Source: Halobaculum sp. CBA1158
Lineage (GTDB): Archaea; Halobacteriota; Halobacteria; Halobacteriales; Haloferacaceae
DNA: 64,000 bases
NCBI RefSeq assembly: GCF_021431925.1
Contig: NZ_CP090372.1
Span: 62,001 to 126,000, forward strand
Reading direction: 5' to 3'
Below, piece by piece: positions 57,196 to 59,329 of this stretch (position 1 is the first letter of the stretch; each line of letters starts with the position of its first letter). A model generated the notes under the pieces. That model had not been told where the DNA came from. It did no database searches and saw only the letters and a program-made list of their open reading frames with translations. A program made the translations under genes and the position numbers.

Positions 57196-58233
57196 ATGGA
57201 GACGCACGAGGACGCGGCCACGGGTGCAGCCGAAGCGACAACCCACTCCGGATCCGGAACCCGAACCGGACCCGGATCTGACGCGCTCGATCCGACCGCC
57301 GCCGACCACGACCTCGAGGGTGAAACGGTACTGATAACCGGTGGAGCCGGCTTCGTCGGCAGTCACCTCGCGAGCGCGCTCGTCGACGACGCGGAGGTGC
57401 GCGTGCTCGACGACCTCTCGAACGGCGACGCCGACGCGGTGCCCGACGGCGCGACGCTGCTCGAGGGCGACCTGCTCGACGGGGACCCCTTGGAGCGCGC
57501 GACCGACGGCGTCGACGTGATCTTCCACCAGGCGGGACTGGTCAGCGTCCCGCTGTCGATCGAGCGCCCCCGCGAGAGCAACCGCGTCAACGTCGCCGGC
57601 ACGCTCGCGGTGTTGGAGGCCGCCCGCCGAGAGGACGCCCGCGTCGTCGTCGCCTCCAGCGTCGCCGTCTACGGGAACCCCGAGTCGGTGCCGATCGCCG
57701 AAAGCGACCCCAAGGAGCCGACCTCGCCGTACGCGACCGACAAGCTCGCGATCGACCACTACACCAGGATATACGCCGACCTGTACGGCCTGGAGACGGT
57801 AGCGCTCCGCTACTTCAACGTCTACGGTCCCGGGCAGTCGGCCGGGGAGTACGCCGGCGTCGTGAGCACGTTTCTCGAGCAGGCGCGCTCCGGTCAGCCG
57901 CTCACCGTCGAGGGCGACGGCTCGCAGACGCGCGATTTCGTCCACGTCGCCGACGTGGTCCGAGCCAACCTCGCGGCCGCCGCGACCGAACACACCGGCG
58001 AGGCGTTCAACGTCGCCACCGGCGAGAGCGTCTCGATCCGCGACCTGGCCGACGTCGTCGTCGACGTGACCGGCGCGAGCGCCGGCGTCGTCCACGTCGA
58101 CGCCCGACCCGGGGACATCGAGCGCAGTCGCGGCGACACCGAAAAGGCACGCCGACTCCTCCGGTTCGAACCGCGCGTCGACCTCCGGACGGGACTCGCC
58201 GCCCTCGCGAGTCGCCCGGCTCCGGTCCGGTGA
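57196..58233 (+). CDS. NAD-dependent nucleotide-sugar epimerase/dehydratase (GalE/WbpP-like)
   Basis: A 345-residue extended-SDR protein. NAD motif TGGAGFVGSH near residue 53, active-site SPYATDK with the Y-x3-K pair, and RYFNVYGPGQSAGEYAGVVSTF match UDP-glucose and UDP-GlcNAc 4-epimerases of the WbpP type. The first 35 residues are acidic and threonine/glycine-rich, probably disordered. It would interconvert UDP-Glc(NAc) and UDP-Gal(NAc). It has its own promoter and is followed by a remarkable polypurine tract. Confidence 0.87.
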   Translation: METHEDAATGAAEATTHSGSGTRTGPGSDALDPTAADHDLEGETVLITGGAGFVGSHLASALVDDAEVRVLDDLSNGDADAVPDGATLLEGDLLDGDPLERATDGVDVIFHQAGLVSVPLSIERPRESNRVNVAGTLAVLEAARREDARVVVASSVAVYGNPESVPIAESDPKEPTSPYATDKLAIDHYTRIYADLYGLETVALRYFNVYGPGQSAGEYAGVVSTFLEQARSGQPLTVEGDGSQTRDFVHVADVVRANLAAAATEHTGEAFNVATGESVSIRDLADVVVDVTGASAGVVHVDARPGDIERSRGDTEKARRLLRFEPRVDLRTGLAALASRPAPVR

Positions 58234-58259
58234 GACCGTTCGAACGGCGCAGATAGCGC

Positions 58260-58383
58260 GAAAGAGAGGCGAGAAGGGCAAGAGAGGCGAGAGAGGCGAG
58301 AAAGGAAAGAGAGGAGAGAAAGGCAAGAGAGGCGGAAGAGGTGAGAGAGGCAGAAGAGTTTGTGAGGAGAGAGGCGAGAAGCC
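58260..58383 (+). repeat. 120-bp polypurine tract with GAGAGGCGA-like units
   Basis: In 58261-58380 I count 107 purines of 120 bases on the + strand. Units such as GAGAGGCGAGAA recur irregularly (58264, 58286, 58295, 58369). It begins 27 nt after the epimerase stop. No ORF on either strand uses it sensibly; the reverse frame would be a proline/leucine/serine repeat. Confidence 0.85.
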
Positions 58384-58424
58384 TGGCCGTCCCACGCAGC
58401 CTCTGTAACATAGACGGACGGCCA
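58384..58424. repeat. Inverted repeat after the polypurine tract
   Basis: TGGCCGTCC (58384-58392) and GGACGGCCA (58416-58424) form perfect 9-bp arms with a 23-nt loop between convergent genes. It could be a terminator-like structure for either side; the sequence beyond is rich in GGTA repeats rather than T. Confidence 0.5.
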
Positions 58425-58425
58425 C

Positions 58426-58480
58426 AGTAGGTAAAATAGGTAGGTAAGGTACGTAAGATAGGTAGCTTAGATAGCTATTA
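58426..58480 (+). repeat. AT-rich tract of GGTA/TAGGT repeats
   Basis: Consecutive degenerate units (AGGTAAAATAGGTAGGTAAGG and TACGTAAGATAGGTAGC) cover about fifty bases with very unusual composition for this genome. No promoter or start codon matches it. It follows the hairpin in the convergent region between the epimerase and the 58505 gene. Confidence 0.6.
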
Positions 58481-58504
58481 CATCTTGTCGACTCGACGAT
58501 CGGT

Positions 58505-59329
58505 TCAGTCGACCACCGACCCGAACGACAGCGGCGCGAGATCCGGGTGGTCGTCGCGGTCAACGACGGCGGGGTCACCCCGGACGTACGCGTCGCGCAC
58601 CGCCTGCCAGTCGGCGTGTCGTCGGAGCACGCGAACCGGGATCGAGTCCAGGTCGAGCAGTTTCGCGATCGAGAGGCGGTTGCGGCCGTCCTCGAACAGG
58701 ACCTCGCCGTCGCGGCCGACGTGGACGGCTATCTCGTCTTTCAGGCGCTCGGTGAGCAGTCGCGACCGCCGGTCGGAGTCGATCGGGTCGCGGCCGCCCT
58801 CGACCAGTAGCTCCGCTTGACTGCGGTAGCCCTCGTCGCGGATCGTCTCGTACAGGTCGTCGAGCCGGCGGCAGCGGCGTCGGAACTCCGCCTCGGTGCG
58901 ACAGCCCCAACGGACGAGACCGCCGTCGAGTTCGTCGACGATCCGGTCGTAGAACGTCGTCTCCTCCCAGGGGACGCCGTCCTCAAAGTGCGCCCGGTAC
59001 GCCCGGAACACATCGAGGTCGGCGAAGCGCTCGCGCTCGCGGTCCCAGTCGCCGCCGGCGACGACGCCCGCCTCCGCGAACTTCGCGGCGTGGAGTTCGA
59101 CGCACCGCTGGATGTCGGCGGGGTCGACGCGGATCAGCCGATACGGCTCGGGAGGGGCGGCGTAGCGCAGTCGGTTACGCAGCGTTCGGGCGGCGACGAC
59201 CGCCCTCGCGTAGCGGTCGCGCGCGATCAACAGCGACGACTCGACGGAGGGAACGCCCTCGGCGAGTCGCCGACCCGCGCCGCGGAGTGTCTCGTCGAGC
59301 GTGCCGATCGGTCGGGGTCCGTATGCCAT
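58505..59329 (-). CDS. ParB-like-nuclease-fold-related protein of unknown function
   Basis: A 274-residue protein I cannot place firmly. Its C-terminal third contains VHVGRDGEVLFEDGRNRLSIAKLLDLDSIPVRV, similar to the ParB/Srx-like G-x-H/R-R core found in small regulatory or nucleotide-handling proteins. The N-terminal half is arginine-rich and helical. The ATG at 59329 gives a 19-nt gap to the oxidoreductase stop at 59349, so they form an operon. Haloarchaeal glycan loci often contain such proteins beside oxidoreductases, but a role is unknown. Confidence 0.6.
   Translation of the reverse strand: MAYGPRPIGTLDETLRGAGRRLAEGVPSVESSLLIARDRYARAVVAARTLRNRLRYAAPPEPYRLIRVDPADIQRCVELHAAKFAEAGVVAGGDWDRERERFADLDVFRAYRAHFEDGVPWEETTFYDRIVDELDGGLVRWGCRTEAEFRRRCRRLDDLYETIRDEGYRSQAELLVEGGRDPIDSDRRSRLLTERLKDEIAVHVGRDGEVLFEDGRNRLSIAKLLDLDSIPVRVLRRHADWQAVRDAYVRGDPAVVDRDDHPDLAPLSFGSVVD

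Follow-up and report, generated by a model that had tools for sequence, protein, structure and literature searches.

Why does a megaplasmid of Halobaculum sp. CBA1158 carry a stretch of about 120 bp made mostly of purines between the ends of two genes, and does this stretch, or something beside it, perform a function there? A preliminary description of the locus proposed that the tract might form triplex or R-loop structures that stop transcription, or might mark a recombination or integration junction. We analyzed it within a window of 64,000 nucleotides (contig C2, positions 62001-126000, from a genome of 3,320,122 bases, or 3.32 Mb, in four contigs); coordinates are those of the window unless prefixed with C2. 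The explanation we favor, with a probability of about 0.6, is that the spacer contains two elements, namely a purine repeat presumably grown by slippage and an outlying array of the iterons that are found upstream of the plasmid’s parA gene.

A degenerate purine repeat between converging genes

The maximum-scoring purine segment of the window spans positions 58260-58381 (122 bp, 89% purine, score 70), with purines on the plus strand and pyrimidines on the minus strand, in a window that is 69% GC. The best score across 100 order-3 Markov replicas was 23, far below that of the tract, which is therefore real and beyond chance. It has the length and composition first attributed to it (88% purine over the originally marked span, 58260-58383). 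No other purine or pyrimidine segment in the window exceeded the reporting threshold. A genome-wide search for windows of 48 positions containing 45 or more purines returned 24, and since all of them are on C2 and inside the tract itself, it is the sole tract of its strength in the genome. TRF describes it as a repeat of period 9 with 9.9 copies and 72% matches, and its autocorrelation is led by lags of 9, 18, and 27.

As initially described, the tract is located in an intergenic, convergent region, which proves to be a spacer of 271 bp (58234-58504). It starts about 26-27 bp past the stop codon of a plus-strand gene for an NAD-dependent epimerase/dehydratase (57196-58233), and 123 nt past the stop codon of a minus-strand gene for a hypothetical protein (58505-59329, in an ORF open to 59368); the surrounding gene cluster is of the polysaccharide type. 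The epimerase gene is complete and ends before the tract, and the tract is therefore not its tail. The hypothetical protein matches no Pfam or NCBIfam family and its predicted structure is poor (mean pLDDT 47.6), with a GRNRLSIAKLLDL stretch that may resemble ParB or sulfiredoxin-like folds. An Rfam search of the window gave no match. Immediately after the tract is a perfect 9-bp inverted repeat with a 23-nt loop, TGGCCGTCC / GGACGGCCA (58384-58424), which we rejected as a special element because similar repeats occur about once per kilobase on the replicon and its folding z-score is ordinary (-0.8 to -1.5). A 12-bp palindrome, CCGTTCGAACGG, is present at 58236-58247, two bases past the epimerase stop.

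The closest relatives found for the locus are Halobaculum plasmids. In 4 of 10 relatives the two genes nearly abut, with the spacer almost absent in H. lipolyticum (7 bp) and the aligned gene ends 30 to 47 bp apart in three congeners. The other six carry different genes after the epimerase: PAS kinases in H. marinum and H. limi, FxLYD/DJ-1 or hypothetical genes in H. salinum and H. halophilum, a serpin and a kinase in Halolamina, and an acetyltransferase in Halobaculum XH14. The junction is thus variable. Inspection of the sequence by eye identified no integration boundary or duplicated target site. None of the 10 relatives has a comparable purine tract at the epimerase junction, and the prospect that the tract might be merely a strain-specific expansion without homologues has therefore largely been realized. 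Searches with the spacer found no homologues in phages, and among 60 relatives no match had an E value below 0.005; two viral contigs were among the matches of a pattern search. On the H. marinum plasmid NZ_CP119990.1, a block of ~35 kb is duplicated (about 1-36 kb and 214-249 kb), with identical protein accessions.

From its sequence, we take the tract to be a degenerate tandem repeat of a 9-bp unit, specific to this lineage, that most likely grew by replication slippage and is probably without a dedicated function. It would be tolerated because it is positioned between two gene ends, and we propose no sequence-specific job for it. Polypurine minisatellites and microsatellites are a known class of short-unit tandem arrays, and the tract resembles these in being a degenerate short-unit array in a spacer that is absent from relatives. 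It differs in its 9-bp unit, a period that dominates in only 2 of 60 intergenic tracts of at least 48 bp (16 have period 5, and 23 have no clear period). Unrelated repeat units in different lineages suggest that such tracts have originated repeatedly by slippage. Taken alone, the purine tract is ordinary.

An iteron array beside the tract

The likely functional element of the spacer lies outside the coordinates that first drew attention. Positions 58427-58480, about 25-78 nt past the stop codon of the minus-strand gene whose 3′ end faces them, hold about six 9-bp iterons (core TASSTR) like those that precede the plasmid’s parA; the region 58427-58486 is 35% GC. The link to ParA came from a blastn comparison of the right half of the spacer with plasmids, wherein the one match (38 bp at 87%, E 0.01) came from Haloterrigena sp. 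KLK7 and lay a short distance upstream of a ParA gene. Words similar to those of the spacer array are present upstream of parA on C2. In the DNA upstream of parA from nine Halobaculum genomes, core words are spaced by 9, 18, or 27 bp (26, 20, and 14 pairs) or by distances 4-5 bp off these multiples, with almost no spacings between. The top lag of the window array is likewise 9 (z 5.6), and an outlying array in H. limi has spacings of 9, 27, and 36. Divergent ParA paralogues (38-39% identity) lack the iteron motif. Three Haloterrigena plasmids (L421, L422, and L423) have a period of 13 bp (and 26 bp) upstream of parA, not 9.

The core word TASSTR was picked after seeing the site under study. 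We built a 6-mer model from the 560 bp preceding parA in each of the eight other genomes (327 bp for one of them) and scanned the 264-kb replicon with it. Among all 60-bp segments, the one at 58427-58486 took first or second rank, with a score of 39-42. The parA site of the same replicon scored 41-43, and the best remaining site (C2:199563) scored 23-25. With 20 control models made from other AT-rich intergenic DNA, between 1942 and 198646 windows scored above the spacer array. When the first 6-mer model was applied to 1.79 Mb of other haloarchaeal stretches, no window reached 24. A position matrix built from 221 units of eight other genomes also placed the spacer array at the top of C2 (33.1, compared with 27.3, 26.0, and 24.2 for the parA sites), and the best score from three Markov replicas was 14.5. 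In models that were not trained on its own genome, the distal array therefore scores like the arrays next to parA. A further outlying array is present outside the window at C2:199572-199595, again between convergent genes, with a matrix score of 31.0.

On the 429-kb plasmid of H. limi, a model trained without this species ranked the parA site first and positions 326767-326826 next (37). Like the array in our window, this second site lies downstream of the hypothetical-protein gene, and the distances to parA are about 102 kb in H. limi and about 98 kb on C2. A corresponding scan of H. marinum (250,000 of 250,847 bp, with H. marinum left out of training) produced strong sites only near parA, and a weak site (about 23.5) in two copies.

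A pattern search for three phased cores, with one mismatch allowed, yielded 52 matches in 11 whole genomes, and 40 of these adjoin this ParA. The pattern is located near parA in all nine genomes that carry this ParA and is absent from the two that do not, and no match was found on the main chromosome of our strain. Outlying matches include the window array, C2:199572, H. limi 326763, a site 3.7 kb from parA in genome G010, and two singles. Because a control pattern with the reverse letter order occurs just as often (18 times in our genome vs 10 for the real pattern), the evidence is in the location of the matches rather than their number. Among the 11 genomes or plasmids in the comparison, an outlying array is present at this junction in just two, our own and that of H. 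limi.

The ParA ATPase and its candidate partner

The parA gene (C2:217356-218255, minus strand) encodes a Walker-type ParA ATPase of 299 amino acids (Pfam AAA_31, 2.7e-31) that matches ParA/Soj structures in the PDB at about 1e-18, and its orthologues in eight other Halobaculum genomes are 86-91% identical. Directly after it is a small gene (C2:216919-217356, 145 amino acids) that overlaps the parA stop codon by 1 nt in eight of nine genomes, with the gene not properly called in the ninth (G010). The encoded proteins range from 141 to 172 amino acids. They invariably begin with MAFDDLD and end in a conserved C-terminal domain, and the acidic linker joining the two varies. They match no Pfam family at the cut-off and no PDB entry by sequence; by eye, the C-terminal domain resembles ribbon-helix-helix proteins. 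The replicon thus has three features of a type I (ParA-based) plasmid partition system: a Walker-type ParA ATPase, a small gene directly after parA, and repeated cis elements close to parA, which are present in 9 of 9 genomes.

Based on its gene position, the protein encoded after ParA is a candidate for the partner that binds the iterons, by analogy with SegB and the small centromere-binding proteins of other systems (PMC12284271 and PMC9178275). In the mechanism we envision, this protein would bind the iterons cooperatively, and ParA would move or position the resulting complex. The array at 58427-58480 is an outlying copy of the array upstream of parA on this Halobaculum megaplasmid family, and would be a centromere-like site that may serve as a second centromere-like or plasmid-organizing station.

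Type Ib plasmid partition systems, of which ParFG is an example (PMC9178275), are among the closest known counterparts. They consist of a ParA, a small partner gene, and short iterated repeats upstream. The locus matches them in its 299-amino-acid ParA, the partner gene overlapping the stop codon, and the short upstream repeats. It differs in being archaeal, in having an extra array about 98 kb away, and in a partner of apparently unrelated sequence. Among archaeal systems, SegAB of Sulfolobales also pairs a ParA-type ATPase with a small DNA-binding protein (here a putative DNA binder), and its sites, like the putative ones here, occur both ahead of the operon and far from it on one replicon (PMC12284271). 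However, the same source gives the SegB motif as a 13-bp palindrome that is chromosomal and mostly inside genes (83.7%), whereas the iterons described here are contiguous 9-bp units in intergenic DNA of megaplasmids, and the partner has no PDB or Pfam match by sequence. The ParA-AspA-ParB system of the Sulfolobus plasmid pNOB8 is similar in being an archaeal plasmid partition system with its own centromere-binding protein (a candidate here), but it has three proteins and a different centromere (PMC9178275). The portions of the archaeal plasmid-partition literature consulted gave SegAB and pNOB8, and no described haloarchaeal centromere repeat was found in them.

Alternative functions for the array

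It is conceivable that the iterons are a binding site for a transcription factor or a replication protein rather than a partition site. The array next to parA could be an operator of the parA operon, and both H. limi and H. marinum carry orc1/cdc6 in the neighborhood of parA. However, the outlying array is situated between two gene ends and at the promoter of neither flanking gene, and long contiguous arrays of short repeats resemble cooperative centromere repeats. We consider this alternative somewhat unlikely.

Another possibility, which we regard as rather unlikely, unites the two elements, such that the entire spacer would act as a secondary centromere in a so far undescribed partition system of haloarchaeal megaplasmids. 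In this case the product of the gene following parA would bind the iterons, and the polypurine repeat, with its matching 9-bp period, would belong to the centromere as a flank or a derivative. The similarity between the iterons and the purine unit is not significant (0.95 of shuffles are as good).

Purine tracts and transcription in Haloferacaceae

A further proposal, which we judge to be improbable, is that the tract forms the transcription-termination or 3′-end region of the minus-strand operon. RNA made from the minus strand across the tract would be 48% C, 40% T, and 8% G, with several UUUC words. Intergenic terminators in Haloferax volcanii are reported to have a T stretch ending at C, with a median 3′ UTR of 97 nt (PMC7237163). 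These resemble the tract in that the RNA past the gene end is pyrimidine-rich, and they come from the same archaeal family, but they are short T stretches followed by C, rather than a 120-nt CU repeat. A look for a T5C-like stretch on the minus strand of the spacer gave one TTTT (58433-58436), four TTTC, and no TTTTT.

Long purine tracts are common in the family, where 98 of 167 Haloferacaceae genomes have a window of 45 purines in 48 and 87 have a pure purine run of 30 or more. We assigned tracts to classes with a home-made gene finder applied to 120 stretches and C2, which recovers the genes flanking the tract in our window. Of 130 tracts, 46 are coding on the sense strand, 3 are antisense, and 15 are at edges. 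Tracts in spacers between tandem genes are pyrimidine in the RNA in 28 of 35 cases (28:7), or in 23 of 29 clusters once orthologous places are merged (23:6, P 0.002), often 0-40 nt past the stop codon. This tendency agrees with the T-rich termination of Haloferax (PMC7237163). These counts omit edge tracts lacking two flanking genes (15 in the first family set, 7 outside the family, and 15 in the new family set), tracts inside called genes, the duplicate stretch L187, and poly-G runs. Sampling was restricted to places among those listed in the genome searches; from one listing, Glu-rich runs were dropped by eye and 40 of 69 kept places were used, and in another, 20 of the 21 places picked by eye among those without a locus were used, with the remaining places without a locus left out.

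Several results weigh against termination. An independent sample from the family points the same way, but at 9 of 13 (9:4) its P value alone is 0.27. Outside Haloferacaceae the direction is opposite (6 of 18, or 6:12), and weaker tracts show no clear bias (6 of 9, or 6:3). Convergent tracts in the family are nearer the gene that reads them as pyrimidine in 11 of 17 clusters, and our tract is arranged the other way (123 vs 26 bp). It begins 123 nt past the stop codon of the minus-strand gene, and it is missing from the relatives. No general 3′ pyrimidine bias was found on the replicon. There is thus a tendency in Haloferacaceae toward CU-rich over GA-rich RNA 3′ of genes, and no general rule. 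Given a strand bias that is seen within the family and is absent outside, a terminator role is no more than possible.

Several repeats were noted during this survey. Pure tandem repeats of the 5-bp AGAGG type recur across many genera of Haloferacaceae and also in further families, in several cases immediately past a stop codon. Three genomes of one genus (G239, G273, and G300) carry many long (GA)n runs, with 21 of 22 listed places being (GA)n-like. At G157:C70:214987-215212, 9-bp repeats of GAAAGAGGC form two blocks 191 bp apart in a repeated stretch that is probably coding.

We find it very unlikely that polymerases are blocked between the convergent genes by an R-loop of GA-rich RNA transcribed from the epimerase side, or by an intramolecular triplex of the DNA. 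The epimerase strand is indeed purine-rich from 27 bp past the stop codon, and the tract, which had been called mirror-like, does contain one perfect mirror repeat of 20 bp (58304-58323), or one of 32 bp with a single mismatch. These repeats stand out to some extent from letter shuffles (P 0.052 and 0.002, respectively), but they are within the range of shuffled repeat units (P 0.16 and 0.054), and thus the symmetry does not exceed that of the repeat itself; an H-DNA element would be expected to show more. Moreover, the arrangement seen here, in which the nearer gene would give purine RNA, is the less common one in a family whose tracts tend toward pyrimidine RNA, the tract is not conserved, and a bacterial triplex element had no terminator activity (PMC4666352). 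A conserved triplex or R-loop stop signal is therefore not supported.

Finally, a collagen-like Gly-X-Y peptide encoded by the plus frame 58070-58405, which has Gly at every third codon over most of the repeat and a Pfam Collagen match (E 5e-5), is hardly credible and was rejected as a gene, given a score of 23.4 bits that is below the curated cut-off of 27.2, no ATG, GTG, or TTG start, a codon score of -0.31 per codon (vs +0.28 for the epimerase), reliance on AGA, which makes up 1.3% of Arg codons on the replicon, and a K+R content of 41% (vs 8.1%) that gives it a charge opposite to that of the replicon’s proteins. A minus-strand ORF (58007-58411) was likewise rejected on its negative codon score and lack of a family, and all six frames across the tract score below coding.

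Implications for megaplasmid maintenance

Under the two-element explanation, the purine tract is worth keeping in view because it marks a spacer with an outlying ParA-type iteron array that is shared with H. limi. The array provides a concrete candidate cis site, along with a putative DNA-binding partner, for a ParA system common to nine Halobaculum genomes. If these roles are confirmed, it would become possible to ask how polyploid haloarchaea keep their megaplasmids, and why a second site has been kept at the same place in two species.
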